From positions 1-26,631 of the IMG/VR virus record IMGVR_UViG_3300042309_001892: a stretch of DNA of 26,631 nucleotides; one strand, written 5' to 3'. The DNA comes from a virus. Both the position numbers and the translations under genes were made by a program. Below are positions 7,245 through 23,458 of this stretch, in pieces (positions within the stretch are counted from its first letter, which is position 1; each line of letters begins with the position of its first letter). The notes under the pieces are model-generated. The model did no database searches, was not told the origin of the DNA, and was given only the letters and a program-made list of their open reading frames with translations.

Positions 7245-9500
7245 TCAAGACGCAAGCGGATTTCCGACAGGTATCGCCTGCTCCGTTATCGTAGGATTGT
7301 CGTTGTCGCCGAAGGTCGGATGGCCGTTCGGGTTGTTGGTCGCTTCGGGAGATGCCGGGGCGTCGTCCCAGCTTTCTCCGTCCTTGACCAATACAATCTT
7401 TCTGTTGCCATTTGAATCAACCAACTCATAATATCCATCCCTTTGAATGGACACTCTTTGGCCTTCCACCATGACAATCGCCGTGTCCAACGAACCCTCG
7501 CCGACCAGCTTCACAGGCGTGGGAGAAAGATCATAAACTCCATTGTTGGCCGCAGAATAACTCTGAACACCCGACATGCCACCGGTTACCTCCAAGAACT
7601 TGACAACAATCGCCTCTGCATCTTCGTAAGAAATATAATCGCTTGTTTGTCTTGCAACAACAAGATAAGCGATTGATTTTCTGCCTGTCAATCCTCTGAT
7701 GCAATTATCGTCATGATCATCGCCATCTTCATTGATCACTTGAGTCAACCCGTCCGACCCCCCAGGAACTATTATCATGTGGTTTACAGATGGAGAATTA
7801 CCCTCTCCTCCACTGCCTTCTCTGCTGACTTTGACAAACACCGTGTATGTTGCACCTTCGTTAACAACAAGCATTGTTGATTCATTTTCGGTGTCGCTAC
7901 CCGAACCTAGATCACCGCCGATTGAAAATTCTTCGATGTCAATATCATTGGCGACCATTACATACATTCCGGGATAATAATTAGTGAAGTAGCTACTATT
8001 GACACCAAAATAACCAGCGCCCGACACTACCTGACCGTCCATAGCAGGTTCGTAAACGGGCGATCCCTCATCTTCCAAATCGCTTTCATCAACAGCAGCA
8101 GAATGAGTATTTGGGACGCTTAAAAGTTCCTCGACATTATCGCCAGATATGTCTTCGAAAAGTTGAGTCAAATTTGTGTTGATGAAGTTTGCATCATCAT
8201 ACATGTCATTATAACCATCGTTTATGCCAAAACTAACGTATCTGAACAATCTTTCCGAGTCTAGTGATCCTGTTGAACTTAACTTGGCAAAACCATAAAG
8301 TGCTTTTCCACCGTAATTGCCCAAGCCTCCAACACAAATAATTTTATTGTTGTCTAAAAGTATATCCTGAACTCTTTGTCCTTCGTATGGGCCATCGTCA
8401 CCAAAACCATACCCGGTAACAAAGGTAGAGTCTTTGGTTCCGTCCGAATTTAGTCTGATAATGTGTCCTTGTCTGTTGCCGTCATATTGATCGAACCAGC
8501 CGCCAACGACTATTTTACCATCCGACTGAATTGCCAAGCATTGAACCACGCCGTCTGTATAATTTAATCCGTCTCCTTCTGTCCCGAAACTAGAGTCCAA
8601 GGTTCCATCGTCATTCAATCTGACAATCCCACGACTACAAGGCGAACCATTGTACTCATTAAACCATCCTCCAACAACCACTTTGTTATTGGAGTCTACT
8701 TCAATACTAGAAACTCTGTTGTTAAACCCTGTGCCGACATCAAAGGTCTCGTCCGTAGTACCGTCGCTGTTTAGTCTGATTATCTTGTTGCCAAAATTCC
8801 CACCGACATAAATCTTGCCAGACGACAAAACATTAATTGCGAAAACATGATCAAGTTGGCCTAAAACAACAGTCTCAGAAAAAGATGTGTTCAAAGACCC
8901 GTCAGAGTTCAACTTAACCAATCTGCTTACAGGTGTGTCGCTGTAAGCATCAAATTGCCCGCCCACCAGGAAACTTCCATCGGAAAGAAGTTTCAACACA
9001 AAGGCATGATTATTAAACCCAATACTTGAAATGCCCAATAGCACGGAATTAAAAGTAGAGTCCAACGATCCATCTGAATTTAGTCTTGCAATTTTACCTA
9101 CCGATGTTCCATCGATGGTTGTAAAATGCCCAACAATAACCAACTTACCATCAGACTGTTCCACCGCGTCTCTAACGAAACCACCGCTGCCGTCTGAAAA
9201 GATAGGAGCGGTAAAAGTCTCGTCTAAAGTAAAATCACTGTTGTATCTGCGAACATTTCTGGCGACAAGTTCGGAATCTTCGGAATCGTTACTTGCGCCG
9301 TCAATACCCACCCACAGATATTTGCCGCCACTTAATGCGATGAATCTACTTCCAAGCGGAGAATTGCCGGGAACATATGCTTCGTATTCATTTTTCGCAA
9401 CGTCAAAATCGTCCACGAAAACTCTCTTGTCCGGAATAAGATCGGTCACTTCTTCGTAACCTGCGTTGAGATTGGACAAAATGTCATTTATATCGGCCAT
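7245..9500 (-). CDS. Seven-bladed delta-60-repeat beta-propeller virion protein
   Basis: The protein is 751 residues from ATG 9500. That start is chosen because AAGGAGGTACGA precedes it; the longer frame to 9530 lacks support. Residues about 85-420 contain seven repeats with the delta-60 (DUF5122) signature, for example 'ARLNSDGSLDSTF', 'VKLNSDGSLNTSF', 'IRLNSDGTTDETF' and 'VRLNDDGTLDSSF', each followed by a 'GKIVVGGWF'-type strand. Seven copies fit a closed beta-propeller. Residues 430-660 are a Gly/Ser-rich beta region. Residues about 675-725 carry the 'EGSLDT...DGESWDD' module shared with the proteins starting at 2503 and 16073. Such propellers are common in surface-binding proteins, so a receptor-binding or whisker-type fibre is inferred. 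A late-promoter-like box lies about 32 bases upstream and a terminator follows. Confidence 0.75.
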   Translation of the reverse strand: MADINDILSNLNAGYEEVTDLIPDKRVFVDDFDVAKNEYEAYVPGNSPLGSRFIALSGGKYLWVGIDGASNDSEDSELVARNVRRYNSDFTLDETFTAPIFSDGSGGFVRDAVEQSDGKLVIVGHFTTIDGTSVGKIARLNSDGSLDSTFNSVLLGISSIGFNNHAFVLKLLSDGSFLVGGQFDAYSDTPVSRLVKLNSDGSLNTSFSETVVLGQLDHVFAINVLSSGKIYVGGNFGNKIIRLNSDGTTDETFDVGTGFNNRVSSIEVDSNNKVVVGGWFNEYNGSPCSRGIVRLNDDGTLDSSFGTEGDGLNYTDGVVQCLAIQSDGKIVVGGWFDQYDGNRQGHIIRLNSDGTKDSTFVTGYGFGDDGPYEGQRVQDILLDNNKIICVGGLGNYGGKALYGFAKLSSTGSLDSERLFRYVSFGINDGYNDMYDDANFINTNLTQLFEDISGDNVEELLSVPNTHSAAVDESDLEDEGSPVYEPAMDGQVVSGAGYFGVNSSYFTNYYPGMYVMVANDIDIEEFSIGGDLGSGSDTENESTMLVVNEGATYTVFVKVSREGSGGEGNSPSVNHMIIVPGGSDGLTQVINEDGDDHDDNCIRGLTGRKSIAYLVVARQTSDYISYEDAEAIVVKFLEVTGGMSGVQSYSAANNGVYDLSPTPVKLVGEGSLDTAIVMVEGQRVSIQRDGYYELVDSNGNRKIVLVKDGESWDDAPASPEATNNPNGHPTFGDNDNPTITEQAIPVGNPLAS

Positions 9501-9531
9501 TCGTACCTCCTTGTAATAAGCCTTGTACAAT

Positions 9532-9539
9532 TATTTATG
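9532..9539 (-). promoter_or_regulatory. T4-type late promoter candidate (CATAAATA)
   Basis: On the minus strand the octamer CATAAATA differs by one base from the T4 late promoter box TATAAATA. It lies 31 bases before the ATG of the propeller gene, leaving room for a short leader containing the strong AAGGAGGT ribosome site. The assignment is by motif and position only. Confidence 0.45.
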
Positions 9540-9588
9540 ACTCGACAGCGTTATTTCTTGAGTCACGTAACAATCAATTCTTCCATAA

Positions 9589-10044
9589 TCACCTAGGAAG
9601 CATACGAAGCGTCTTTTCGTAATCTTGGTCATTTTGCCACTCTTCACGCCACGCATTAAATAGGGCGTCATATGTATGTTGAACCCTTATTGAATGTATC
9701 GCGGCAATATCTACAGGGTTGAATTTCTTATCATTGACTTGAAAATCAACGATGCGCCCCGATCCCCCTTCGTAGTCTTCGTCGTTCTCGTATCTATCCG
9801 CATCCACCATTCCTTGTACTCTTTGGGTTCTACCAGGAGCGACATAAATATCCATATCAACAAACTTTCCATAAAGAACCTGGAATTCTTCTTGATCCCA
9901 AGGAAGCCCGGCCTTATCCAAGGCTTGTTCTATCACCTTGAAGGCCGCCTTTTCTTGATCATCGTACGATGAGCTAACTAAAGGCCCTTTAGCTAGATCC
10001 CCAGAACCCTCCAGAATAATCAACATCTCGTAAAAACTCTTCAT
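9589..10044 (-). CDS. Putative internal protein with capsid-targeting sequence (MKSFYEML)
   Basis: The protein is 151 residues from ATG 10044. An upstream in-frame ATG at 10077 would add 11 residues. The internal start is preferred because AAGGAG lies at ideal distance and because it places MKSFYEMLIILEGSG, the targeting leader, at the N-terminus; the predicted cut is ILE/G. The rest is an acidic alpha/beta protein ('AAFKVIEQALDKAGLPWDQEEF...', 'VDADRYENDEDYEGGSGRI'), with no recognised family. Curiously, the upstream ATG at 10077 sits just after the shared leader motif (CTAGATAGGCATG) used as the start context of sister genes, so the gene may once have started there or could have two starts. 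Confidence 0.7.
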   Translation of the reverse strand: MKSFYEMLIILEGSGDLAKGPLVSSSYDDQEKAAFKVIEQALDKAGLPWDQEEFQVLYGKFVDMDIYVAPGRTQRVQGMVDADRYENDEDYEGGSGRIVDFQVNDKKFNPVDIAAIHSIRVQHTYDALFNAWREEWQNDQDYEKTLRMLPR

Positions 10045-10077
10045 ATCATCTCCTTGGTGCTCAAATAATTTCTTCAT

Positions 10078-10098
10078 GCCTATCTAGCCATTTTCAAG
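10078..10098 (-). promoter_or_regulatory. Shared leader motif, degenerate copy
   Basis: The minus strand reads AATGGCTAGATAGGC immediately before the ATG at 10077. This matches the conserved leader core found before several capsid-targeted genes, but here a separate ribosome site and start lie 33 bases further on. There is no TAAATA box upstream. Confidence 0.5.
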
Positions 10099-10124
10099 GC
10101 GTTTTTCTTGAAGTCAAAACGCGA

Positions 10125-10514
10125 TTAACTCTCCGCCTTCAACTTTGCCAAATTATAGGCGATCCCTACAAGATTGTCCCAATTCTTCTCAATGTACTCG
10201 GGAGGACCACCAATCTGCGCAACAACGTCGGCCGCCTTTTCCGTCGGAACCATTTCGATCGCATCCCAAGGACAAACTTTTAATTCATAAGGATTGGTCT
10301 TCTTGCCGGGGATATGAACACAAACCTCGCAACCAACACACCTGTCCAAATCGATCTGGCACCAACTCTGTAGATTATGGAACTTGTCATGTTGCTGAAT
10401 CTTGATAATACAATCAACAGGACAAACCTCCAAACAAGCCTCGCACCCAGTGCAATTATCTGCATTTATAATGGCTAACTCTTTTGGAAGTTTTTTTCTA
10501 GGAAGTTGTTTCAT
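10125..10514 (-). CDS. Two-cluster [4Fe-4S] ferredoxin
   Basis: This 129-residue protein is a bacterial-type ferredoxin. Cluster 1 is C21-x2-C24-x2-C27-x3-C31-P (NCTGCEACLEVCP). The second site is C59-x2-C62-x2-C65 with a longer loop to C81-P (KVCPWDAIEMVP). Extra cysteines C35 and C52 are present. The spacing and the C-terminal helix ('EKNWDNLVGIAYNLAKLK') are those of cellular dicluster ferredoxins, so this is a one- or two-electron carrier of the cytoplasm. It lacks the capsid-targeting leader of its neighbours, so it is probably made in the cell during infection. GGAAAG precedes the ATG. It sits in a minus-strand run between two small putative internal-protein genes. It is an auxiliary metabolic gene by definition; its redox partner is unknown. 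Confidence 0.9.
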   Translation of the reverse strand: MKQLPRKKLPKELAIINADNCTGCEACLEVCPVDCIIKIQQHDKFHNLQSWCQIDLDRCVGCEVCVHIPGKKTNPYELKVCPWDAIEMVPTEKAADVVAQIGGPPEYIEKNWDNLVGIAYNLAKLKAES

Positions 10515-10536
10515 TTGATTCTTTCCGACGCGAAAG

Positions 10537-10842
10537 TTAGTCCTCGATTTCGTCGAACTCCTTCATAGCGGCCGCGAACTCCTCCAGCCTGGAAGTGGCC
10601 TTTTCCAGAGCATGGTAGTACTTGTCCGCTTGCTCGCTGCCCAACTTCTTCGCACCCGGACCATGCCATACGTAGGCCGTTGCCCACTGGGCTGCTCTGA
10701 GTCCCTCGGTGGATATCCGGCGGAGCTCGTCCAGCTTTTTCCTCCATGTGTAGTCGCTCATGGGCCCGCCCATGTCGTTCTGGAACGCATAGGACTCCGT
10801 GAGGCCCGCCAGATAAAGTTCGTAATTGTTCGCTTTCTTCAT
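10537..10842 (-). CDS. Small putative internal protein, variant targeting leader
   Basis: The protein is 101 residues from ATG 10842, chosen because GGGAGGAGAC precedes it. The N-terminus MKKANNYELYLAGLTESYA is not the standard MKTFYEWL form. It keeps the aromatic-Glu-Leu core and a possible LTE/S cut, so packaging is only possible. The remainder is predicted helical ('YTWRKKLDELRRISTEGLRAAQ', 'YYHALEKATSRLEEFAAAM') with no recognised family. The shared leader motif (GGCCTAGATAGG) and a GATAAATA box lie just upstream, as for the standard members. It is 22 bases upstream of the ferredoxin gene and probably cotranscribed with it. Confidence 0.6.
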   Translation of the reverse strand: MKKANNYELYLAGLTESYAFQNDMGGPMSDYTWRKKLDELRRISTEGLRAAQWATAYVWHGPGAKKLGSEQADKYYHALEKATSRLEEFAAAMKEFDEIED

Positions 10843-10858
10843 GTCTCCTCCCACTTGA

Positions 10859-10890
10859 TCCTATCTAGGCCTTTTCAAAGCATATTTATC
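10859..10890 (-). promoter_or_regulatory. Shared leader with GATAAATA late-promoter-like box
   Basis: The minus strand reads GATAAATATGC, then a short spacer, then AAAAGGCCTAGATAGG. The box is one or two bases from the T4 late promoter. Unlike most copies it is followed by an independent Shine-Dalgarno before the ATG at 10842. Confidence 0.5.
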
Positions 10891-10955
10891 GTTGGCCGAA
10901 TCCCATAGGAAATCATTTAAAGCCAAGGGGCGACACTATAAAGGAAGCCACGAAC

Positions 10956-11195
10956 TCAAAATCCAGTTATGAATTTCTCCGCTTCCTCGGCGTCATTCAT
11001 AGCCATCATAGCCATAGCGCCGATCATCGGGTTTTTGTGCCTGCTGTCTCCGATCTTTTCTAGATCCGAAACCATAGAAAGCACAGCGTTCCGGATCTCT
11101 CCCTTCTTGAGGTACTCCATAGCCCTGTTCTTGGCCCACTCCAGATCCTTGTCCGCAGATTCAAAGATTCTCATCATTTCGTAAAAAGTCTTCAT
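10956..11195 (-). CDS. Small internal protein with capsid-targeting sequence
   Basis: The protein is 79 residues, starting MKTFYEMMRIFESADK, a textbook match to the targeting leader with predicted cut IFE/S. After cleavage about 67 residues would remain: two or three amphipathic helices ('EWAKNRAMEYLKKGEIRNAVLSM') and a short Met/Ala-rich segment ('NPMIGAMAMMAMND'). This is comparable in size to the small T4 internal proteins. No enzymatic motif was seen. The start directly follows the shared leader motif CATAGATAGGGC. Confidence 0.75.
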   Translation of the reverse strand: MKTFYEMMRIFESADKDLEWAKNRAMEYLKKGEIRNAVLSMVSDLEKIGDSRHKNPMIGAMAMMAMNDAEEAEKFITGF

Positions 11196-11229
11196 GCCCT
11201 ATCTATGCCTTCTTATTGGCATATTTTTT
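11196..11229 (-). promoter_or_regulatory. Shared leader of a capsid-targeted gene
   Basis: The minus strand reads AAAAAATATGCCAATAAG, then AAGGCATAGATAGGGC, then ATG. The A/T box corresponds in position to the TAAATA box of the other copies but is degenerate. Most of it also encodes the end (KKYANKKA, then stop) of the small frame at 11203-11313. Confidence 0.45.
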
Positions 11230-11313
11230 GGCCCAAGGAAACCATTCAGGCGATCCATTCGACGCCGACAAATACCAGCCTTCACCCCTAAATACAGACT
11301 CGTCGGCCACCAT
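11203..11313 (-). CDS. Possible 36-residue small protein (or gene remnant) ending KKYANKKA
   Basis: A minus-strand frame from ATG 11313 to TAG at 11203 encodes 36 residues rich in Trp and Ser (includes 'GWYLSASNGSPEWFPWAKK'). It ends in YANKKA just 7 bases before the start of the internal-protein gene at 11195. The same tail type (KYAxKK, then A or PR, then stop) is readable before other members of the cassette and is the true C-terminus (EKYEKKA) of the endonuclease at 18706-19818. No ribosome site is visible. It could be a real micro-protein, the tail of a decayed gene, or chance overlap with the leader. Confidence 0.3.
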   Translation of the reverse strand: MVADESVFRGEGWYLSASNGSPEWFPWAKKYANKKA

Positions 11314-11404
11314 ACGGAAGAATTTTTAACAAAACCAATCCAAATGTATCTTACGCAAATAATAGATATATGTGAAGGCATCCTAATATCAAGGAGGAAC
11401 AAAC

Positions 11405-12013
11405 ATGCCAGCCACAACAACGGAAGGTACAGGATCTGGTTCGGTAGATAATATCAGAAGGAAGATAGAGAACTCCGTCGTCAGGGAAGAGAACCTATTC
11501 CCGCCGGAGATACTCATGCCGGTCGGCGTGGTGCTCCCCTACGTCTCAAGCAACGCCCCGAACGGGTGGCTGAGTTGCTTGGGTCAAGAGCTTTATAGAG
11601 GAGATTATCCCGACTTGTTCGCGGTGATCGGAACCACCTACGGTGCGGGAGACGGAAGCACGACATTCAGACTGCCCAATTTGGCGGGTAGAGTGGTCGT
11701 TGGACAAGGAAGCGGAGCAGGCCTCACCTCCAGGAGCATGGGAGCCACGGGCGGAGCCGAGACCCACACCTTGACCACCGGCGAAATGCCGAGCCACTCC
11801 CACACATCCAACGCAGTAGGAGGAACCGTGGGTCTGATAACTGCGGACGGAAATAACACTGCGGTCGGCGTAGATGGATCGGCAGTAGAACCCAACTTGT
11901 ACGCAGCCCCCGCAGCATTAAGCATTAATAGTGCTGGTAGCGGTTCCGCGCACAACAACATGCAGCCGTTCGCCGTACTGAACTACATCATCAGATACGG
12001 ACAAAAAACCTAA
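11405..12013 (+). CDS. Tail-collar-domain fibre protein
   Basis: This 202-residue protein has a phage tail collar domain (PF07484 type). 'EILMPVGVVLPYVSSNAPNG' opens it at about residue 35, 'YPDLFAVIGTTYGAGDGSTTF' and 'LPNLAGRVVVGQG' follow, and 'PFAVLNYIIRYG' closes it at the C-terminus. These domains form the distal part of short tail fibres and related microcystin-dependent-like proteins. Residues 1-30 (TTTEGTGSGSVDNIRRKIEN) are shared with the next gene and probably attach the protein to the virion. The start has an ideal AAGGAGGAACAAAC. It is on the plus strand, the first of two genes each closed by its own terminator. Confidence 0.9.
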   Translation: MPATTTEGTGSGSVDNIRRKIENSVVREENLFPPEILMPVGVVLPYVSSNAPNGWLSCLGQELYRGDYPDLFAVIGTTYGAGDGSTTFRLPNLAGRVVVGQGSGAGLTSRSMGATGGAETHTLTTGEMPSHSHTSNAVGGTVGLITADGNNTAVGVDGSAVEPNLYAAPAALSINSAGSGSAHNNMQPFAVLNYIIRYGQKT

Positions 12014-12026
12014 GGTGAATTTGAGA

Positions 12027-12059
12027 AAAGCCCCCGGGGAAACTCGGGGGCTTTTTTTA
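12027..12059 (+). terminator. Rho-independent terminator
   Basis: The hairpin AAAAGCCCCCG, 8-base loop, CGGGGGC is followed by CTTTTTTTA. It begins 14 bases after the tail-collar gene. Nearly the same stem-loop recurs after the next gene. Confidence 0.95.
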
Positions 12060-12115
12060 TTTTTGGATCTAATTTTTAGCCAATTTAAGTCCGTTCTATT
12101 TTAAAAGGAGCTTAT

Positions 12116-12970
12116 ATGACACAGACGACAGAAGGCACAGGACCAGGATCAGTTGATAGGGTAAAATCTAGAATACTCAATGGTGATGTAAAAAATTCAA
12201 ATCTTGAATTAGTAACAATTATAGATGGCGGCAGCGGAGACCTTGAAAACGTAGAACTAATCAAAGCCCCCAACGGAACCTCGGAAAGCATGGACGGACT
12301 CGACCTCGTGATAAGAGGCGGAGAGGGCTATGCGACAGCAGGAGAAGAGGACGACGCCGACGGCGGCGACGTAACCATATCAGGTGGTATGCAACATGGA
12401 AATGGAGATAGTGGGGATGTGAGGATTAACGGTGGAGATAGTAGCACGGAGTTCGAAAACTCCGACGCAGGTGATGTTACCCTCCGCGGCGGCGACGGCC
12501 TCGGACCGGCGGACAGCGACGGCGGAGACGTGACGATCAGGGGCGGAGATTGTCAGGCCGAAGGAACCACAGGGGAGGCTGGCGACGTTACTCTAAGAGG
12601 TGGAAACTCCGATGGGTCATCTGGCGGAAACGTGCAGATTTTTGGTGGTGACTCGGGGTCTTCAGAAGAAGAAGAAGATGATGACAACGACGGCGGAAGC
12701 GTAACGATCAGAGGAGGCTCCGCGACCAGCAACACCGCTCGTGGAGGAAGTGTGACTATAGAAGCGGGGAGCGGTAACTACGGCCATGGCGTTGTTTATA
12801 TACAGAACCTCTTCAGGATTCCCGGTTTTAATGCCTTGGCCGATCTAGAAGCCATAATCCCTGAAGGCGCAGAAGAAAATGGAATGATGTGCTATGTGAA
12901 TAACTTGAATGCTTTTGTCGTAAGAGCGAACGGTGCTTGGGTCACTTTAAATACAAGCCCTATAACCTAA
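12116..12970 (+). CDS. Repetitive fibre protein with GGDVTIRGG repeats
   Basis: This 284-residue protein has three parts. Residues 1-30 (TTEGTGPGSVDRVKSRILNG) match the N-terminus of the preceding tail-collar protein. Residues about 65-225 hold some nine copies of a short repeat of the form GGDVT[IL]RGG[DN] separated by variable acidic Ser/Gly/Asp loops, which predicts a beta-helix or stacked fibre shaft. Residues 230-284 ('NLFRIPGFNALADLEAIIPEG...', then 'GAWVTLN') are a small tip domain seen at the ends of fibre proteins. AAAAGGAGCTTAT gives a good start. The protein is very acidic, so metal-stabilised loops are possible. A second tail fibre or whisker attached at the same site as the collar protein is inferred. 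Confidence 0.75.
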   Translation: MTQTTEGTGPGSVDRVKSRILNGDVKNSNLELVTIIDGGSGDLENVELIKAPNGTSESMDGLDLVIRGGEGYATAGEEDDADGGDVTISGGMQHGNGDSGDVRINGGDSSTEFENSDAGDVTLRGGDGLGPADSDGGDVTIRGGDCQAEGTTGEAGDVTLRGGNSDGSSGGNVQIFGGDSGSSEEEEDDDNDGGSVTIRGGSATSNTARGGSVTIEAGSGNYGHGVVYIQNLFRIPGFNALADLEAIIPEGAEENGMMCYVNNLNAFVVRANGAWVTLNTSPIT

Positions 12971-12994
12971 TTTAACAAGGCGTTTTTACAATGG

Positions 12995-13030
12995 AACGGC
13001 CCCCGGGGAAACTCGGGGGCCGTTTTTTTT
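12995..13030 (+). terminator. Rho-independent terminator
   Basis: The hairpin AACGGCCCCCG, loop, CGGGGGCCGTT is followed by eight T. It sits between the plus-strand fibre gene and the convergent internal-protein gene. The stem core is almost identical to the terminator at 12027, so one was probably copied with the fibre cassette. Confidence 0.95.
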
Positions 13031-13061
13031 GGCCTTGACATTTAGTCTGCCCACATGATCA

Positions 13062-13691
13062 TCATTTGATTCTTTCCACGACGGCAGGTTGTCTCACTTC
13101 GCCGTAGCGTATTTTGAATCCCTTCACAACCACACTCACATTAGATCCAGATACAAGTCTATTCCCATTGATTTCAATAACTTCGCTAGGATTCGTCACC
13201 ATGAACTCATCTTCTTCTGGAAAAGCTTCCCATTTGCACTCATCTTCAAGAATCTTCAACAGACTATCTTTGATGTGAGCGTCCATCCGTCCCTCAAGAG
13301 ATAAACTTCTATAGATCTGATAAAGATGTCGCCCGCGTCTGTTCTTGTCGTTTTCCTGCCTGCTCTGATTCCAATACTCCCACAGCTCATTAAGTTCCCC
13401 TTTACCCTTCCAATACTTGTTAGCAATATTTTCTATGTACTCCACGGGATTTGAAGTAGTCTTCGGCGGAGCCATCTGGGGCTGTCTGATTTGAGGAGCG
13501 GGTTCGTTATGACTTGCTGGCGCTTGTTTGGCATTGGGCCCATCAAACAACCTTTGGAAGTCGTCAACGCTCATGCCCTTCTTTGGAGGAGGGGTCGTAG
13601 CCGCCTTTGGTGTTGGCTGCTTATTCTTCCCAAACAAGTTAGAAAAGAAACCGGCCTCCCTCAATTCTAGCCATTCATTAAATGTTTTCAT
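13062..13691 (-). CDS. Putative internal protein, proline-rich linker type (paralog 1)
   Basis: The protein is 209 residues from ATG 13691, which gives MKTFNEWLELREAGFFSNL, the targeting leader with cut LRE/A. A longer frame to 13724 is rejected because it lies over the upstream gene's end and loses the leader. After the leader comes a conserved 'GFFSNLFGKNKQPTP' segment, then a Pro/Gln/Lys linker (about 25-90), then a helical region and a C-terminal domain ending 'VVVKGFKIRYGEVRQPAVV'. The same plan (FFSNLF, linker, 'AFPxEE', 'VKGFK') is found in the next gene upstream, so they are diverged tandem paralogs 4 bases apart. The function is unknown. Confidence 0.75.
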   Translation of the reverse strand: MKTFNEWLELREAGFFSNLFGKNKQPTPKAATTPPPKKGMSVDDFQRLFDGPNAKQAPASHNEPAPQIRQPQMAPPKTTSNPVEYIENIANKYWKGKGELNELWEYWNQSRQENDKNRRGRHLYQIYRSLSLEGRMDAHIKDSLLKILEDECKWEAFPEEDEFMVTNPSEVIEINGNRLVSGSNVSVVVKGFKIRYGEVRQPAVVERIK

Positions 13692-13695
13692 TGAT

Positions 13696-14421
13696 TCATC
13701 CTCTATTGTCTCTTTTAAGGGCATCTATGCTGACTACGGCTTTCATCGTCCTTCCGCCATACTTGAAGCCTTTTACTATAACCTTCGCAGGCTCTTCAAG
13801 ACTACTTATCCCCGCGTCGTTGATGTGGTATTCGCTTGAATCCCAGTCGGGCTTCTGATACGGAACGACAACTTCTTCGTCCGGAAACGCAACTGCCCCC
13901 AATTCATCCTTGAACATTTTCTCTATGATAGAAATTGCCTTGTCGATTTCCGAACCGGACAGTCCGTAGTTATCGCCCCCGTAGTTCTTAGCCCGAGATA
14001 ACCACGAATAAGCCTCAAATGCCCTAGAACTATTAGATGCATTTTTCAAAGAATGATCAGACTCCGGCCTCATTCTTTGAATTGGGAGTATTTTATCTCC
14101 CACCAACCCATACAGTTGGTCGAATAGCGTTGTGCCCCCGGATTTAGGAAAATTACTAGCCGTTGATGGCTTGTTTTGTTGATTAGGTTGTGATGTTTTT
14201 GGTAGGGTAGGCTGCGATGGACTAGTCTTATTTTCTGAAGGCTTATATCCAGGAACTAATATCCTCATCGCATCATCGTGTGCGTCAGACTGTCTTTTAC
14301 GCTCTTTTTCTTCTGGCGTTTCTTTATTTACATTTTGTGGAGGAGTTTGTTTCTTGGCTCTAAATAAATTGGAGAAGAAATTAGCCTCGTTCACTTCTAG
14401 CCATTCATAAAATGTTTTCAT
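13696..14421 (-). CDS. Putative internal protein, proline-rich linker type (paralog 2)
   Basis: The protein is 241 residues. The leader MKTFYEWLEVNEANFFSNL has predicted cut VNE/A. As in its tandem paralog, 'NFFSNLFRAKKQTPP' follows, then a long Pro/Ser/Thr/Gln/Lys low-complexity linker (to about residue 95). A helical domain follows, and an end domain with 'AFPDEEVVV' and 'VIVKGFKYGGRTMKAVVSI'. The linker is longer and more Ser/Thr-rich than in paralog 1. The architecture suggests an anchor segment and a compact effector domain joined by a flexible tether. The start directly follows the shared leader motif. No enzyme signature is visible. Confidence 0.75.
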   Translation of the reverse strand: MKTFYEWLEVNEANFFSNLFRAKKQTPPQNVNKETPEEKERKRQSDAHDDAMRILVPGYKPSENKTSPSQPTLPKTSQPNQQNKPSTASNFPKSGGTTLFDQLYGLVGDKILPIQRMRPESDHSLKNASNSSRAFEAYSWLSRAKNYGGDNYGLSGSEIDKAISIIEKMFKDELGAVAFPDEEVVVPYQKPDWDSSEYHINDAGISSLEEPAKVIVKGFKYGGRTMKAVVSIDALKRDNRG

Positions 14422-14456
14422 GCCCTATCTAGGCCTTATTATTGGTATATTTATTG
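14422..14456 (-). promoter_or_regulatory. Shared leader with AATAAATA late-promoter-like box
   Basis: On the minus strand AATAAATATACC lies about 26 bases before the ATG and is followed by AATAAGGCCTAGATAGGGCATG split by two bases. This is the clearest copy of box plus leader core, and a good candidate for a T4-type late promoter with the transcript starting just upstream of the start codon. Confidence 0.55.
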
Positions 14457-14491
14457 TTCGCCGGCCCACTAACGGAGCGGAATCAAAAAAA

Positions 14492-15004
14492 TCACACCGC
14501 AACCTTGGTGCGACTAGAGGACACGGCTTGCATCATTTGATTGGCCTTGTTGGTTAATATCCCATTCGCCAGCTTCTGAGCATATCCAGACCCCACGGAG
14601 CCATCCTTGATGGCTTGAAAAAGATTGCTCGCTATCTGGCCCTTCTCTTGCTCGGTAAGATAAGCCAAGCACGCATCCGATATTTCCACATAAGTATCAA
14701 CCGTTCTCTGAATCAGAGAGGGATCGCGAGTTTGAGCCTTCTGGGAAGCCCTCTGGCTGGCCAACTGCATCGCTTGCTTGACGGCCCGGCTTTCTCTCCA
14801 AGCCCTCTTGAGATCACTTACGGCTCCTACGGCCGCCTTCGCAACCCCTCCAAGCCCAGGAACAAGGCTCATGCCACCCGTGACGGCCGCAACCCCGGCA
14901 TCAGTCGCCATATCTCCCGCCGCCGCTTTAGCACGACCTGCCAAACTGGAGCCTACGCCTCCACCTATCGCCTTGGCTTCCAAAAATTCATAGAATGTTT
15001 TCAT
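14492..15004 (-). CDS. Putative internal protein with Gly/Ala-rich hydrophobic segment
   Basis: The protein is 170 residues. Leader MKTFYEFLEAKAIGGG has a likely cut FLE/A. The next part is Gly/Ala-rich and moderately hydrophobic (about residues 14-62, 'AAVTGGMSLVPGLGGVAKAA'), the type of sequence that can insert in or fold against membranes. It is followed by a basic helix (LKRAWRESRAVKQAMQLASQ) and an amphipathic helical C-terminus. No known family. If the protein is ejected, a role at the inner membrane during DNA entry is conceivable but unproven. The start follows a variant leader (ACTAGATAGAGC). Confidence 0.7.
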   Translation of the reverse strand: MKTFYEFLEAKAIGGGVGSSLAGRAKAAAGDMATDAGVAAVTGGMSLVPGLGGVAKAAVGAVSDLKRAWRESRAVKQAMQLASQRASQKAQTRDPSLIQRTVDTYVEISDACLAYLTEQEKGQIASNLFQAIKDGSVGSGYAQKLANGILTNKANQMMQAVSSSRTKVAV

Positions 15005-15037
15005 GCTCTATCTAGTCATTTTCATTGAGTATTTAGC
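15005..15037 (-). promoter_or_regulatory. Shared leader, variant copy
   Basis: The minus strand reads GCTAAATACTC, a spacer, then ATGACTAGATAGAGC before ATG 15004. It keeps the TAAATA box and the TAGATAG core with a few substitutions. Confidence 0.45.
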
Positions 15038-15040
15038 CGC

Positions 15041-15361
15041 TCATGCTCGTGCGTCAGAGCCAGGCCCCATCCACGTAGGCCTCTTGTAACTGGGATCCCG
15101 CGACATCTGAAAGGACAACTCTTGCTCCATCGCATCTATTCCTTTCTGAGTGGGGACAAAACCGCCCGAAGCTCCGCGCTCCAAGAAACCCGCCCCCAAA
15201 CACTTACGAAGATGACTCAAATGGGTCGGCTCTACACGATCAGATATCATACCAAGGCCCTTCTCCAAAGAATCAAACATAACCCAGATGTTAAGACTGG
15301 TGGGAGTCCCCTTCGGAGCACGAGCCTCATTCAATTCAAGCCATTCATAAAATGTTTTCAT
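15041..15361 (-). CDS. Putative internal protein with winged-helix-like domain (short paralog)
   Basis: The protein is 106 residues. The leader MKTFYEWLELNEARAPKGT has cut LNE/A. The mature part reads like a small winged helix: a helical start (NIWVMFDSLEKGLG), a helix-turn-helix-like stretch (THLSHLRKCLGAGFLERG), a wing (GASGGFVPTQKG) and a last helix. DNA binding in the newly infected cell is a reasonable inference from that pattern, but no specific family is recognised. It is nearly identical, also at DNA level, to the first 93 residues of the gene at 16152-16949. Confidence 0.7.
   Translation of the reverse strand: MKTFYEWLELNEARAPKGTPTSLNIWVMFDSLEKGLGMISDRVEPTHLSHLRKCLGAGFLERGASGGFVPTQKGIDAMEQELSFQMSRDPSYKRPTWMGPGSDARA
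15066..15328 (-). repeat. 263-base direct repeat, copy 1 (partner 16651-16913)
   Basis: Copies of equal length encode the winged-helix-like domain of two internal-protein genes and differ at only a small number of positions. This points to a recent duplication. The intervening 15384-16073 gene is unrelated. Confidence 0.85.
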
Positions 15362-15377
15362 GCCCTATCTAGGCCAA
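15362..15377 (-). promoter_or_regulatory. Shared leader core (short copy)
   Basis: The minus strand reads TTTGGCCTAGATAGGGC before ATG 15361. Only the core is conserved. The upstream TAAATA box is absent because the previous gene ends just before it, so this gene is probably read through from the 15384-16073 gene. Confidence 0.5.
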
Positions 15378-15383
15378 AGCAAT

Positions 15384-16073
15384 CTAAATCTGCTCCACCC
15401 TCAAGGGATCGGCGTTAGAGAAACCGAGGCTGACCGGATTCAAATTCAAAGCGTCCTGAAATCCGTCTTGATTCCAGTCGCAGTAAATGAGGATAAATCC
15501 AATGGTATCGTCCGGCGAATCGCCACCTACCGGAAGATCGGCCTGCGAGGTCAACTGCTTCACAAGCCGCCAAGTCACGACCCTGAGGCCACTCGCCAAC
15601 TCCAAGTGAACGGTGATCCCGAGGTCCCGCAGACGAGTCCCGATGCCCAATGAATATCCGACGTTTCCCACGGGCTGGGCGACATTGGTGCTATCACACA
15701 CGTCATTGTAAAAGTCGTAAAGATGGTCAATGTCCTCGAAAACTATCCTCTCATCCTCTTCGACTATGGGCGGGGAAGATTCCCTGAAGTCCTCCAAGAC
15801 CGAATTCACGTCCGCAACCGGATAAAGCCAGATCGTGTCTAGGACAGTCTTCCATCCCGAGACGTAAGAAACCACGTCGTCATAGGACTCGCCGTCCCTT
15901 CTGCTTCCGATAACCTTGACGTTGCCCTGCTGGTCCCTCGTCATCACCATGTTGACAGTCCTCTGCAAAGACACGCCGTTCAAGACGCTGGTGTCCAAAC
16001 CACCCTCGGTGGCAATGTTGGTAAGCACAGGAGTGAGATCAATCGGATATTCAATTGGATTTGTGTAGTTCAT
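15384..16073 (-). CDS. Structural-type protein with 'EGxLDTS...DGESYDD' N-terminal module
   Basis: This 229-residue protein has an N-terminal ~65 residues (DLTPVLTNIATEGGLDTSV, 'SLQRTVNMVM', 'RRDGESYDDVV') that align with the 105-residue protein starting at 2503 and with the C-terminal module of the propeller protein. The rest is beta-rich and acidic, with 'DWNQDGFQDALN' near the C-terminus, a possible calcium-type Asp loop. It lacks the capsid-targeting leader although it is embedded in the internal-protein run. A virion surface or fibre-associated role is inferred from the shared module. The start lacks a strong ribosome site. Confidence 0.6.
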   Translation of the reverse strand: MNYTNPIEYPIDLTPVLTNIATEGGLDTSVLNGVSLQRTVNMVMTRDQQGNVKVIGSRRDGESYDDVVSYVSGWKTVLDTIWLYPVADVNSVLEDFRESSPPIVEEDERIVFEDIDHLYDFYNDVCDSTNVAQPVGNVGYSLGIGTRLRDLGITVHLELASGLRVVTWRLVKQLTSQADLPVGGDSPDDTIGFILIYCDWNQDGFQDALNLNPVSLGFSNADPLRVEQI

Positions 16074-16151
16074 ATAATTATGTATGAAATCACAAACCCT
16101 TTTCAGTGTGAAGTGAGTAAGGAATTTAGACCGGATTTTCTGGCGGTAAAA

Positions 16152-16949
16152 TTACTTAAACAAACCCGCCAATCTTCGAAGTGCTGTATCAACCCTTAAA
16201 ACATTAACTTGGTGATTGTCTTTGATGGATTTTTCTAAACTTTTTATTATCTCTCTATACATTAGCAAATTGTAAAAATCTTCTGATACCACCACTGTGT
16301 CGGGACTATTGAAATCAAAATTCCCAATCTTATATCTTGGCCCCATTCCTGAAAGATTTGCATCATGACCAAATAGTAGATTTTGGTCAGTCAAGTTCTT
16401 TTCCCAAACCAAATACTGCTTCCATTCTTTTGAAAAATGATTGTTAAGTTTATCTAAACATTTTTGTTTTGACAAATTTACTACATTTTTAACTTCTTCT
16501 ATCTCTTTTTGATCATAACTAAAGTCTTGTTTAGACCCAGTTCTTCTACTCTGTCTCCATTGTTGAATTTTTGCTAGCAACTGATTTAAAATATCTCTGT
16601 TGTAATTTTCATAAATCTGAGTTGATGACACAGAGGCAATATATTCGGAACCCATCCACGCAGGCCTCTTGTAACTGGGATCCCGCGACATCTGAAAGGA
16701 CAACTCTTGCTCCATCGCATCTATCCCTTTCTGAGTGGGGACAAAACCGCCCGAAGCTCCGCGCTCCAAGAAACCCGCCCCCAAACACTTCCGAAGATGA
16801 CTCAAATGAGTCGGCTCCACACGATCAGATATCACCCCGCCACCCTTCTCCAGAGAATTAAACATGACCCAGACATTGAGACTGGTGGGAGTCCCCTTCG
16901 GAGCTCGAGCCTCGGCCAACATCGCCAGCATTTCATTAAATGTTTTCAT
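16152..16949 (-). CDS. Putative internal protein: winged-helix-like domain fused to AT-rich C-terminal extension
   Basis: The protein is 265 residues. Leader MKTFNEMLAMLAEARAPKG has predicted cut LAE/A. Residues about 14-105 repeat the winged-helix-like domain of the 106-residue paralog almost exactly. From about residue 107 on, the protein is new: a long Lys/Asn/Gln-rich helical region ('QIYENYNRDILNQLLAKIQQ', 'LDKLNNHFSKEWKQYL') and a final helix. This extension is encoded by visibly AT-richer DNA with different codon preference, so it was probably fused onto the duplicated N-terminal domain. The function of the extension is unknown. Confidence 0.75.
   Translation of the reverse strand: MKTFNEMLAMLAEARAPKGTPTSLNVWVMFNSLEKGGGVISDRVEPTHLSHLRKCLGAGFLERGASGGFVPTQKGIDAMEQELSFQMSRDPSYKRPAWMGSEYIASVSSTQIYENYNRDILNQLLAKIQQWRQSRRTGSKQDFSYDQKEIEEVKNVVNLSKQKCLDKLNNHFSKEWKQYLVWEKNLTDQNLLFGHDANLSGMGPRYKIGNFDFNSPDTVVVSEDFYNLLMYREIIKSLEKSIKDNHQVNVLRVDTALRRLAGLFK
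16651..16913 (-). repeat. 263-base direct repeat, copy 2 (partner 15066-15328)
   Basis: Second copy of the DNA encoding the winged-helix-like domain. The homology ends on one side at the targeting leader and on the other at the junction with the AT-rich extension, so the leader and C-terminal part were not part of the same copied block. Confidence 0.85.
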
Positions 16950-16990
16950 GCCCTATCTAGGCCTTTTCTTGGCATATTTCTCGTTGGCCG
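16950..16990 (-). promoter_or_regulatory. Shared leader with GAGAAATA box
   Basis: The minus strand reads GGCCAACGAGAAATATGCC, then AAGAAAAGGCCTAGATAGGGC before ATG 16949. Similarity to the copy at 10859-10890 extends upstream through TTCGGCCAACGA, so here about 50 bases are shared. A 14-codon frame ending KYAKKRPR can also be read through it. Confidence 0.5.
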
Positions 16991-17053
16991 AACCCATAAG
17001 AACTCATTTTAATTGACCTTGCCGCATAAAGTGAATTTAATTAATGTGACGGG

Positions 17054-18295
17054 ATGAAAAGTGTTAAAAAAAGAAAAACCTTGGCTGACTTCCCCGAACT
17101 AGCCGCAGAATTACACCCAACAGACAATGGAGATCTGAAGCCAGAGGATGTCGGATTTGGGTCAAATAAAAAATTGATATGGCAATGCAAAAAAGTAAAA
17201 GAACACATATGGCCAGCAGAAGTGGGCAGTAGATCAAAAGGCCGTGGGTGTCCATATTGTGCTGGCCGAAAAGTTTCCATTGATAATTGTCTTGCAACCA
17301 CTCACCCCGAACTTGCCGCGGAATTACATCCAACGGAAAATAAATATTTAACTGCGGAAAACATTACCGCTGGGTCGGGTGAAAATTTGATATGGCAATG
17401 CAAAAAAGTAAAAGAACACATATGGCCAGCAAAAGTGTCCAATAGAGTAAATGGTACTGGGTGCCCATATTGTGCTGGCCGAAAAGTTTGCATTGACAAT
17501 TGTCTTGCAACCACCCACCCCGAACTGGCCGCAGAATTACACCCAACAGAGAATGGAGATTTAACTGCGGAAAAAGTCACTGCTGGATCGCATAAAATTG
17601 CGGTTTGGCAATGCCAAAAAGTAAAGGAACACATATGGCCCGCACCAGTGAACGAGAGATCAAAAGGCCGTGGGTGTCCATATTGTGCTGGCCGAAAAGT
17701 TTCCATTGATAATTGTCTTGCAACCACTCACCCCGAACTTGCCGCGGAATTACATCCAACGGAAAATAAAGATTTAACTGCGGAAAACATTACTGCTGGG
17801 TCAAATAAAAAATTAATATGGCAATGCAAAAAAGTGAAAGAACATAAATGGCCAGCAGAAGTGCGCGATAGATCAAAAAAAGGCAGTGGGTGTCCATATT
17901 GTGCAGAATCAAAAGGAGAAAATAAAATTTCAGAGTTGTTGAAAATTATGGGTCTGCCATTCAAAAGGCAAGCCAAATTCAAAAAATGTAAGAATAAAAA
18001 TGTGCTTCCCTTTGATTTCATCGTCAAGCTACCGAACGGAAAAGGCTTCTTGATAGAATATCAAGGAATTCAACATTACGAGCCAATAAGAAGAAGCAGA
18101 TCTTGGACAAAGAAAAAGACCATGGCTCACTTCAAGGCGATCCAAGAAAGAGACAAAATCAAATCAGAATGGGCCAAAAAAAATAAAATACCATTGCTCG
18201 TCATCCCATGCTGGGACCATGAAAAAATGCCAAAGTTGATTGAGGAGTTCGTGGAATTAATTAAACGGGACGAACCCAAATATACTTCTTCTTAA
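17054..18295 (+). CDS. Free-standing endonuclease with four zinc-ribbon (DUF4379-type) repeats
   Basis: This 413-residue protein carries four tandem repeats of about 71 residues. Each holds 'HPELAAELHPTEN', 'LIWQCKKVKEHIWPAxV' and 'GCPYCAG', the pattern of the treble-clef/zinc-ribbon DUF4379 (PF14311), with WxC and CPYC supplying the zinc ligands. The C-terminal ~130 residues look like a Vsr/PD-(D/E)xK-type nuclease. They contain 'LPFDFIVKLPNGKGFLIEYQ' (Asp near 319, Glu-x-Gln near 333-335) followed by 'GIQHYEP', as in phage homing endonucleases. Modular DNA reading by the zinc repeats and cutting by the C-terminal domain is inferred. The gene is AT-rich, opposite in strand to its neighbours and has a weak ribosome site, all consistent with recent insertion. 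Confidence 0.8.
   Translation: MKSVKKRKTLADFPELAAELHPTDNGDLKPEDVGFGSNKKLIWQCKKVKEHIWPAEVGSRSKGRGCPYCAGRKVSIDNCLATTHPELAAELHPTENKYLTAENITAGSGENLIWQCKKVKEHIWPAKVSNRVNGTGCPYCAGRKVCIDNCLATTHPELAAELHPTENGDLTAEKVTAGSHKIAVWQCQKVKEHIWPAPVNERSKGRGCPYCAGRKVSIDNCLATTHPELAAELHPTENKDLTAENITAGSNKKLIWQCKKVKEHKWPAEVRDRSKKGSGCPYCAESKGENKISELLKIMGLPFKRQAKFKKCKNKNVLPFDFIVKLPNGKGFLIEYQGIQHYEPIRRSRSWTKKKTMAHFKAIQERDKIKSEWAKKNKIPLLVIPCWDHEKMPKLIEEFVELIKRDEPKYTSS
17231..17376 (+). repeat. 146-base internal repeat, copy 1 (partner 17657-17802)
   Basis: The two copies differ at about two positions and are spaced exactly 142 codons apart, twice the protein repeat length. Zinc-ribbon units 1-2 and 3-4 therefore arose by recent duplication of a two-unit block or are being homogenised. 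Confidence 0.9.
17657..17802 (+). repeat. 146-base internal repeat, copy 2 (partner 17231-17376)
   Basis: This copy covers the end of zinc-ribbon unit 3 and the first part of unit 4. Its sequence is almost identical to copy 1. Confidence 0.9.
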
Positions 18296-18698: not shown

Positions 18699-18728
18699 GC
18701 CCTATCTATGCCTTCTTCTCATACTTTT
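18699..18728 (-). promoter_or_regulatory. Shared leader overlapping the end of the endonuclease gene
   Basis: The minus strand reads GAAAAGTATGAGAAGAAGGC, then ATAGATAGGGC, then ATG 18698. Its TAG is the stop of the endonuclease at 18706-19818, whose last residues EKYEKKA are encoded by the leader. The TAAATA box is degenerate (AAAAGTAT). Confidence 0.5.
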
Positions 18729-20357: not shown

Positions 20358-21785
20358 TCAGATGACGAAATTGGCGACGCTGAGGCGAGCGTAGAACTTT
20401 GCTCCCTCTCTCAGCAACTTCTTCCCATATCGAGTCAGGATTCCCTTGCGAGGACAGAACGACTCGGGATCGAGGACAACTGGGGTCTGGGTGAGTGGCA
20501 CGTACGGGCAGTAGAAGTAACCACTGTCCATATAGCTGTCACCCTTGTAGCCCATGAGGATCTGTCCCGTCGGGAACAGCGGATCCTTGTAGAGTCTCCA
20601 ACGGTTGTTCACGGTGCCGACATACTGGATGCCGAGCGACGATGTGAAGCCTTCCGAGGGGGCCGGAGCGAAACCAGCGGTGGCTGTCTCGAAGATCGAG
20701 GCAACTTCGGGGCTGGTGACGAGCCAGTTGCAGCCGCCGCGGAGCGTCTTGCGATGCACCACGTTGCTGACTTCGACGACCTTGACGTAGAGCGACTCAT
20801 ACTTTTCCTTGATGGTGTCACCAAGGGCAGTATTGAAGTCCCACGAGGCGACTGTGCCCGCGTTGTTGCGGAGGTCGCTGAGAACTTCACGGTCGATCTC
20901 AAGGTTGATCTCTTGCGCCAGAACGGCGGTGAGTTCAGCCTCGGCGTCGAGGTTGTGCTGGCTGCGGAGGTCCTGCTGGGCCTCGTAGCTCCACACGGCC
21001 TTCAACTTACGGGTCTTGGCAGCGATCTCTTCCGACTCAACGACGAGGTTGATTTCGGGGAGGTCCTGGTTGCATTCCATGTTGTACTCGTACGAGACGG
21101 TAACATGGTTGGCACCCGGGTCGCTGTTCCAAGTCAGGCCCATCTCGCCTGTGGTCAGGTTCAGCGTGGCGCTGGTGACCTTGGCCGAGGGTGAACCGAT
21201 GTCGTGGAACGTGAACGAGCCGCTTTCCGAGACCACGAAGGTCTGGACGGCGACGTTACCGTCATAGACGGTGCCGGTCACGGTTCCGGCGAGAACCGGG
21301 GTGTGCTCAAGCGTCACGCTGGTGCTGGTGCCGCCGGCGTCTGTGGCACTCGTCTCGTTCTCAACGAACTGGTGCGAGTAGTAGACGCTCAGGTTGGCAT
21401 CGCCGCTGGCGAGCTGCTGGAGCGAGTTGGCGTCGTCTGTGGGGAAGCCGCTCTTGACGGCTCCACGGACGCTGCCCTTGTTGCTGCCGTATCTAAAACG
21501 GAGGTAATAGACAAGGCCGGTCGGGCCGAGCAACGGCTGAACCGAGACCACCTTATTGGCGATCAGCTGGGGGTAAATTCTACGGACGAGCGGAATCGAG
21601 ATCCTCTTGAACTGGGCTACGTCGCCCGAGTCTGTCGAGTTCTCGTTGATGAGACGCTGGTTTTCGAGGAGAACGGCAGTGCAAGAACGTGTGTACTTGT
21701 CGCTTATGTTCTCTAGCAAACCTGTTTGCGCCCAACGAGATTCCAGCTCCCTTGCTTCATTTAGAAACTTTGCATTTGCTTGCAT
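20358..21785 (-). CDS. 23: Major capsid protein (T4 gp23-like)
   Basis: This 475-residue protein forms the hexamers of the head. The T4 gp23-type signature lies at residues 61-100: 'RISIPLVRRIYPQLIANKVV' then 'SVQPLLGPTGLVYYLRFRYG', which corresponds to the region of gp23 just after its processed N-terminus. The N-terminal ~50 residues are charged and helical and should be removed by the gp21-like protease; possible cut sites are LLE41/N or INE48/N. Residues about 140-230 form a beta-rich Gly/Ser/Thr insertion ('GTVTGTVYDGNVAVQTFVV', 'LTTGEMGLTWNSDPGANHV') that may be a surface domain. AAGGAGAATCATAACC precedes the ATG. It follows the scaffold gene by 36 bases and is closed by a strong terminator. 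Confidence 0.95.
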   Translation of the reverse strand: MQANAKFLNEARELESRWAQTGLLENISDKYTRSCTAVLLENQRLINENSTDSGDVAQFKRISIPLVRRIYPQLIANKVVSVQPLLGPTGLVYYLRFRYGSNKGSVRGAVKSGFPTDDANSLQQLASGDANLSVYYSHQFVENETSATDAGGTSTSVTLEHTPVLAGTVTGTVYDGNVAVQTFVVSESGSFTFHDIGSPSAKVTSATLNLTTGEMGLTWNSDPGANHVTVSYEYNMECNQDLPEINLVVESEEIAAKTRKLKAVWSYEAQQDLRSQHNLDAEAELTAVLAQEINLEIDREVLSDLRNNAGTVASWDFNTALGDTIKEKYESLYVKVVEVSNVVHRKTLRGGCNWLVTSPEVASIFETATAGFAPAPSEGFTSSLGIQYVGTVNNRWRLYKDPLFPTGQILMGYKGDSYMDSGYFYCPYVPLTQTPVVLDPESFCPRKGILTRYGKKLLREGAKFYARLSVANFVI

Positions 21786-21821: not shown

Positions 21822-22736
21822 TTAGTCGTTGTTTTTCGTTCCGGCTAGGACCTGCATTTGACGAAGCAGGTCAGGATCGAGACTTTCGACCAATGTTGTG
21901 TCAACGTTTGGCTTCTTTTCTTCGGACTTATTGTCATTCCATTCGGCAACAAGCTCAGAGTCGTTGACGGCACGTCCTCTCCCCTGCACATTCTTTGCCT
22001 TTTCTACTCTTTCTTTCTTCTCAACCTTGGCTGATTCGGTGATGACCTTTTGGGTCTCTCTGACAGCTTCGTTGAGTTTTGTGTTCTCGGCGCTCAGTCT
22101 GATGTTTCTCGCCTCCAGGATCTTGACCTGGCTCTTGAGTTCTTCTGACTTGCGGGCGATCTCTTCAACCTTCACGTTGTTAACGCCGGCGAACTCTTCG
22201 TCCCCGATGTAGTTGGCAACGCATTCCACGACCTTGTCGAGGGTGGATTTGTGCTCCACCAGTCTCGGGTCATTCGTGATATCTTTGTGGGCCGACTCAT
22301 AGATCTCGGCGCCCTTGTACTGAAGGAAGGCGTCGACCTTATCGACCATGTATTCCTTCATCTCTTGGAGTTTTGTGTTGAACTGCTCGTACATCTCGAC
22401 CTCGAGGTTCTCGTTCTTGCCCTTTTCGGCGAGGAGCATCTGGTAGGCTTCTTCGTAGCCTTCCTCCATCGACGACTCGAACTCCTTCTGTTGGGTTTCG
22501 AGGCGGCCGCGGAGATCTTGGATGATCGCGTACGCTTCCTTGTAGCCTTGGATGGCGGTCTCCTCAGCTGTCTTCAGTTCGTCGGAAAGTTCTGCATAGG
22601 CTTCCTCGAGCTTGGAGTTGAATTCCAGCTCGCAAGCCTGCTTGGCACCTTCCAATTCGTTCTTGACTGCCTCGGTGACTTCCGCAACGGCGTCCTCGGG
22701 GAGCAGTTTGGTCAAAGCCTCTACAATTTTTTCCAT
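21822..22736 (-). CDS. 22: Prohead core scaffold protein (T4 gp22-like)
   Basis: This 304-residue protein is strongly acidic and almost wholly helical and coiled coil from residue 1 to about 240 ('LEEAYAELSDELKTAEETAI', 'KSQVKILEARNIRLSAENTK'). A Lys/Glu-rich tail with a conserved C-terminal motif 'DPDLLRQMQVLAGT' follows. This is the standard form and position of the T4-type scaffolding protein, which forms the prohead core and is degraded by the protease during maturation. Its ATG overlaps the protease stop (TAATG), so translation is coupled. The C-terminal motif probably contacts the capsid protein. Confidence 0.9.
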   Translation of the reverse strand: MEKIVEALTKLLPEDAVAEVTEAVKNELEGAKQACELEFNSKLEEAYAELSDELKTAEETAIQGYKEAYAIIQDLRGRLETQQKEFESSMEEGYEEAYQMLLAEKGKNENLEVEMYEQFNTKLQEMKEYMVDKVDAFLQYKGAEIYESAHKDITNDPRLVEHKSTLDKVVECVANYIGDEEFAGVNNVKVEEIARKSEELKSQVKILEARNIRLSAENTKLNEAVRETQKVITESAKVEKKERVEKAKNVQGRGRAVNDSELVAEWNDNKSEEKKPNVDTTLVESLDPDLLRQMQVLAGTKNND

Positions 22737-23458
22737 TATTTGTTCCTCTCTTTAATTTCTCTGGCTTGTTTCTGGACAATCCCGCCGAAAGCAGCAAGAA
22801 TGAGCTCTTTGCTCAGAGTATGTATGCTACTAGTTTCATTTTTTACACCAGAATGAACTTCTTGCTGGACTGTTTTCGGACTAACGCTCTCTTTGGAAAC
22901 CACTTTTTCCTGGAAAGCTTGGCTGGTGCTCGGATCGGCAACTGCGTCAAAGGTTATGAGTTTGTAGCTCTCGCCGATGACTAGAATGCCGTTCTCGTTC
23001 ACTTTGCCGTTACCAACTCCACGGCTGCTTATTCCCACTCTGACGCCATCATTGATGAGCGCCCTGAGGATTTTGCCGTGGGGTGTGTTCAGTATGACCC
23101 CTTCACCCATGAGGGTCTTTCCCTCCCACCAGAGTTTGGTGATCTTGTGGGATGCGTTCGTAAAGTGGACTATGCTGTCCGTCGGATGGTCTAATTCGCC
23201 GATGAGGCCTCCGCTGGACATGGTTTCCATCAAGCTCTTGACATTGTCGTCAAGTACACCGAACGGGTAGGTCCTTTTATTCTTATTGACGGCGTCGGCC
23301 TCCTGGAACTTACCTCTGAACTTGACAACGCTTCCACCGGTTCCGGCGGACTCATGCAAGTCCATTTCGTTCAGGACGGCGCAGTTTCCGCCTCCGAGAA
23401 TTAGTCTGTTCTCGTATACGGTGCCCGGCGTCAAATCGTGTTCTAGCAACAGATTCAT
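22736..23458 (-). CDS. 21: Prohead core protease (T4 gp21-like)
   Basis: This 240-residue protein is a serine protease of the herpesvirus-assemblin/T4 gp21 fold. The catalytic His is in 'GELDHP' (H91) and the Ser in 'VGISSRG' (S144 or S145); 'FDAVADPS' follows (171-178), as in the family. It cleaves capsid, scaffold and internal proteins after (L/I)-x-E. The C-terminal ~60 residues (after 'AFQEKVV') are a linker and helical tail that probably plugs into the core. The protease matters for the whole window: the leaders of about twelve other gene products end in sites of this type. GGAGG precedes the ATG (17 bases after the upstream stop). Confidence 0.95.
   Translation of the reverse strand: MNLLLEHDLTPGTVYENRLILGGGNCAVLNEMDLHESAGTGGSVVKFRGKFQEADAVNKNKRTYPFGVLDDNVKSLMETMSSGGLIGELDHPTDSIVHFTNASHKITKLWWEGKTLMGEGVILNTPHGKILRALINDGVRVGISSRGVGNGKVNENGILVIGESYKLITFDAVADPSTSQAFQEKVVSKESVSPKTVQQEVHSGVKNETSSIHTLSKELILAAFGGIVQKQAREIKERNK

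Follow-up and report, generated by a model that had tools for sequence, protein, structure and literature searches.

Cyanophages carry PetF, a plant-type [2Fe-2S] ferredoxin of host type with a presumed role in maintaining electron transfer in the infected cell, which differs from the protein described here in fold and cluster type and is not its homolog. [4Fe-4S] ferredoxins are already known from lake phages as well: in Lake Baikal, the Nitrospirota viruses VP_99 encode a 4Fe-S ferredoxin 86% identical to that of the host (PMC7678222). The original prediction for the present locus, a bacterial dicluster ferredoxin of a kind rarely reported in T4-like phages, holds as to rarity in the collections searched, where 50,697 phage records gave no close match that could serve as a cultured-phage precedent and two weak ones, but it has to be read beside the phage [4Fe-4S] ferredoxins described earlier (PMC7678222).

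The locus lies in what we call the window, the whole stretch of DNA analysed, positions 1 to 26,631 of IMG/VR record IMGVR_UViG_3300042309_001892. The contig is T4-like, since it carries capsid, protease and tail genes, listed here with the gene under study:

20358..21785, minus strand: major capsid protein Gp23 (Pfam, E=1e-84)
22736..23458, minus strand: prohead core protease, gp21-type, S77 (Pfam, E=6.3e-27)
11405..12013, plus strand: tail collar/fibre protein, whose homolog adjoins the ferredoxin gene in contigs G002 and G001 too
10125..10514, minus strand: 2[4Fe-4S] ferredoxin gene of 129 aa, beginning with ATG; the range includes the stop codon

With capsid and protease on the same contig and the ferredoxin gene on several independent contigs, the gene sits in a real phage genome, and a chimera or assembly artefact at this point, which had been named beforehand as grounds for refutation, is ruled out. 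Elsewhere in the window, one protein (17054-18295) contains four treble-clef repeats (DUF4379), whose coding DNA consists of 213-base repeats, and the gene at 12116-12970 has a terminator-like hairpin on either side (12025-12061 and 12994-13030), the two being nearly identical (CCCCCGGGGAAACTCGGGGG, followed by a run of T).

Inspection of the ferredoxin confirms the two full cysteine sets that had been noted. The first (residues 21, 24, 27 and 31) forms CxxCxxCxxxCP at residues 21-32, and the second (59, 62, 65 and 81) consists of CxxCxxC, a 15-residue insertion and then CP, a spacing that is non-canonical yet conserved in that form among homologs. Extra cysteines occur at residues 35 and 52. 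Across 22 diverse homologs, whose identity to the window protein ranges from 47 to 97%, none of the eight ligand cysteines varies and neither does C35, which shows the second set to be real, if unusual. CxxCxxCxxxC occurs once in the six frames of the window, within the ferredoxin, and among 200,000 shuffled versions of the protein 31 contain CxxCxxCxxxCP by chance. Fer4_21, Fer4 and Fer4_7 score above their Pfam cut-offs, mainly recognising the first half of the protein, and no PHROG matches it. The AlphaFold model is of moderate quality (pLDDT 73 and pTM 0.64 for the best of five; pLDDT 44-57 for the other four). Among PDB entries it comes closest to dicluster iron-sulfur proteins or domains, including PscB of green sulfur bacteria, FwdF, NuoI of complex I and PsaC, with marginal E values near 2e-3, and its viral structure matches (BFVD) include no ferredoxin. 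Judged by its sequence, the window protein is a dicluster 2[4Fe-4S] ferredoxin with two predicted clusters, and the model is consistent with a ferredoxin fold, if through marginal matches.

Residues 91-128 of the model form a C-terminal helical extension outside the classical ferredoxin core. This extension would suit an iron-sulfur decoy or regulator, one that binds a host defence or transcription protein for example, in place of an electron carrier. Such a role is very unlikely, given that host housekeeping copies have the same extension and that all cluster cysteines are conserved.

A row of window genes begins MKTFYE...EA, starts that we take to resemble T4 internal-protein leaders. The ferredoxin begins MKQLPRKKLPKELA, unlike these neighbours; as anticipated, it has no targeting leader of the kind that a gp21-type protease cleaves from T4-like capsid-targeted internal proteins. 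Its immediate surroundings are as follows:

10537..10854, minus strand: 105-aa gene with no known function, upstream of the ferredoxin across a 22-base gap
9589..10077, minus strand: 162-aa gene on the downstream side of the ferredoxin; its leader (MKSFYEMLIILEGSG) is internal-protein-like
10860..10903, minus strand: copy of the cassette-start element (AAATA...GGCCTAGATAGG, family D7) before the gene upstream of the ferredoxin
10079..10122, minus strand: next copy of the start element, between the ferredoxin stop and the following gene
10883..10889, minus strand: ATAAATA, resembling the T4 late-promoter core by consensus match only, some 30 bases upstream of the gene at 10537-10854

The 10537-10854 gene is probably co-transcribed with the ferredoxin. 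Its product has neither a Pfam nor a PHROG match and is 96% identical to a homolog in G001, where the downstream gene also has a homolog (81%), likewise directly after the ferredoxin. The start element (AAATA...GGCTAGATAGG, then ATG) precedes several leader-bearing genes of the window, and in G001 a copy abuts the start codon of the ferredoxin itself. Repeats of the element (TAGATAGGGCATGAA) before leader-bearing genes extend over 10079-18712, and two 263-base stretches (15066-15328 and 16651-16913) are 93% alike. Together, the element repeats and the near-identical stretches suggest recombination of gene units. ATAAATA is present within some copies of the element and occurs six times in the window versus 1.7 expected, a count reached in 2 of 100 shuffles. 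The element and this motif suggest that the genes are exchangeable, late-expressed units.

All bacterial loci found for the ferredoxin (27 of 27, 67-84% identity) are planctomycete records, mostly Pirellulales. Genera among them include Pirellula, Blastopirellula, Bythopirellula and Rhodopirellula, and one locus is titled Kuenenia, a title that may be a bin label. Within the order of the Pirellula genome G021, a match is present in 86 of 147 genomes and, in another count, a strong match in 151 of 397, with one match per matching genome bar one gene split over two contigs. A phylum-wide draw yielded the close form in 3 of 294 genomes. The neighbours of the host ferredoxin in one host group, named by eye, are a decarboxylase-like gene, dprA, prfB and tex. 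The window ferredoxin groups with Pirellulales genes over its full length, and its derivation from a Pirellulales host is supported on these comparisons. The expectations that the gene is host-derived and that it identifies the host group are both borne out, which provides a genome-internal host assignment (Pirellulales, as probable host) for a group of uncultured T4-like lake phages.

Phylogenetic analysis places the freshwater phages in one clade (support 97/93) and the marine phages as sister to the bacterium G660 (100/100), whose copy is 85% identical and follows a decarboxylase-like gene, as in other hosts. A single viral clade was not rejected with fewer hosts, before G660 was added (p=0.335), but is rejected with G660 included (AU p=0.0065). 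Capture by all phages in a single event is thereby rejected, and the tree indicates that the ferredoxin was captured at least twice from planctomycetes. The more divergent viral copies on the short contigs L050 and L051, left out of the AU test, may represent a third capture. The alignment comprises 131 columns and leaves the deeper branches without resolution, so that the protein tree proposed for finding the donor lineage leads to these captures and, for the window clade, as far as the Pirellulales, short of one exact donor.

Seven viral contigs match the window ferredoxin, and a profile search adds the marine set. The 143-kb G002 shares the T4-like structural genes of the window, its capsid being 99.6% and its ferredoxin 97% identical. 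In G001 (33 kb) the ferredoxin reaches 99% identity and the neighbouring small genes are shared, but the capsid region is not. On G003 (125 kb) the ferredoxin is 96% identical but the rest of the contig has little in common with the window, and the gene has therefore moved between phage types. Its tape-measure-like and terminase genes are similar to those of G005 and of the marine G008, and G008 carries further phage genes; G005 and G004 are further ferredoxin-bearing contigs otherwise not close to the window. Among 44 related-capsid records, many of which are fragments, an intact ferredoxin is present in G002 and lacking in the other 43, including the long records G463 (150 kb) and G473 (135 kb). 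In G461 (capsid 97% identical), the gene has decayed: a 3' piece of 31 residues is left, interrupted by a stop (L230; G461:8014-8106). Since most capsid relatives have no intact copy, the ferredoxin is an accessory gene that is not needed generally.

Patchy distribution and a decayed remnant are what a passenger gene, taken from the host and without a role in infection, might leave behind. The phage copies, however, are under very strong purifying selection, with dN/dS of 0.016-0.05 (dS 0.37-1.4, dN 0.012-0.035) among those of the window, L001, L002 and L003, the last with a C-terminus ten residues shorter. Such constraint, independent recapture and presence in different phage types leave the passenger explanation strongly disfavoured and extremely improbable. 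Decay in related phages, which the original prediction had offered as a counter-argument, is thus seen in G461 and not in the intact copies. The gene combines location in a phage genome, host origin and purifying selection, as expected of a virus-encoded auxiliary metabolic gene.

A redox partner was sought among phage-encoded proteins. Nucleotide reduction and radical enzymes, both suggested initially, found no support: radical SAM proteins were rejected as partners, occurring in 0 of 7 ferredoxin-bearing records, and so was ribonucleotide reductase of the PF02867 type, a model that does not cover the class III enzyme and that exceeds its cut-off in 1 of 16 records, G005 alone. The low-oxygen or iron-rich conditions envisaged alongside them are not supported either, as no finding bears on them. 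On G002 lie genes for a haem-dependent N-demethylase-like protein (PF11927, HODM; 17726-18487), for a flavoprotein of the NADPH-FMN-reductase family that has a cysteine-rich stretch (9086-10018), for a ferritin-like protein and for a thioredoxin, a set that would accommodate a ferredoxin dedicated to a specific phage-encoded redox enzyme such as the PF11927 protein or the flavoprotein. This assignment is unlikely. The ferredoxin-bearing G003, G005 and G008 have no PF11927, and G494 and G497 have it without the ferredoxin, so that HODM/PF11927 was rejected as a partner; neither the PF11927 protein of G002 nor its flavoprotein has a homolog in the other ferredoxin phages examined. Thioredoxin-like genes are found in G005 and G008, but also in G480, without the ferredoxin. 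Beside its N-demethylase-like protein, ferritin-like protein and cysteine-rich flavoprotein, G002 (L063-L064, L067) encodes a caspase-domain protein. As no phage-encoded partner is common to the ferredoxin-bearing phages examined, the simplest reading is a host partner, and the ferredoxin most likely serves host enzymes. With a window contig of 26.6 kb and no phage record certified complete, a phage-encoded partner could be missed.

In the marine phages, the ferredoxin is usually the last gene of a row, PSCyt1-PSCyt2-PSD1 / DUF1501 / ferredoxin, seen at L047:5801-9823, in L040, L043, L046 and L048, and in others. It lies directly downstream of a close DUF1501 in 14 of 19 marine-group contigs and is missing there in 5, a PSCyt1/PSCyt2/PSD1 protein stands upstream wherever the contig extends that far, and PF07394 (DUF1501) occurs together with the ferredoxin in ten records. 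No report of PSD1 or DUF1501 in phages was found among the open-access papers searched. A DUF1559 pilin-like protein, from a family typical of planctomycetes and carrying an N-terminal methylation motif, is also encoded by marine phages L046 (13284-14270) and L045.

The row could represent a planctomycete redox module that is whole in marine phages and of which freshwater phages retain the ferredoxin alone. We consider this quite unlikely: beyond the five contigs that break the pattern, DUF1501 is absent from the window phage and its freshwater relatives, where it was rejected as a candidate, and the freshwater clade goes back to a capture of its own. PSD1 and DUF1501 have the look of exported proteins, unlike the ferredoxin, a type of protein that is normally cytoplasmic. 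In host genomes, which have 10 to 96 DUF1501 matches each, an operon of ferredoxin and DUF1501 was not seen at the loci examined, bar a distant paralog about 2 kb away at L019, the one host ferredoxin locus with DUF1501 nearby. A different proposal, to which we assign a small but real chance, is that planctomycete phages of fresh and marine waters recurrently need this host ferredoxin, and that the marine ones coupled it to a predicted PSCyt1/PSCyt2/PSD1 cytochrome and DUF1501 as a virus-assembled redox module; if true, the pathway of the module is unknown in the host as well. The marine row places the widespread planctomycete families PSD1 and DUF1501, whose function is unknown, beside a ferredoxin under viral selection, and offers a handle on what they do.

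On balance, we think it probable that the window ferredoxin is a functional, host-derived auxiliary gene that supplements or replaces the Pirellulales ferredoxin during infection. An ancestor of the freshwater phages would have taken the single housekeeping 2[4Fe-4S] ferredoxin of its Pirellulales host, and the gene would then have spread among T4-like and other tailed phages; in the window it forms one exchangeable unit within a series of short genes that have a start element in common. A late-type promoter would probably serve both the preceding gene and the ferredoxin, giving late expression, and the product, having no capsid-targeting leader, would remain in the cytoplasm. There it could supplement or substitute for the host ferredoxin as host synthesis shuts off, and electrons would keep flowing to host ferredoxin-dependent enzymes. 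Such a role points to a need for added electron transfer in infected cells and to low-potential electron supply as a probable limit on phage production in these bacteria.

Compared with known systems, the phage protein shares with the single-copy 2[4Fe-4S] ferredoxin of Pirellulales up to 84% identity, the same invariant cysteines, the same second-motif insertion and the same C-terminal extension. The phage copy differs in its G+C (0.44 versus 0.52-0.61 in the freshwater host genes compared) and in its placement among phage structural genes. The marine-row ferredoxin is 62-66% identical to that of the window but stems from a separate capture, from another planctomycete lineage, and is accompanied by two extra planctomycete-type genes. 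VP_99 and the window phage are alike by description, as freshwater phages with a host-derived iron-sulfur ferredoxin gene, and differ in host phylum (PMC7678222). Relative to the literature searched, the planctomycete source, the repeated capture and the marine gene row appear to be new.
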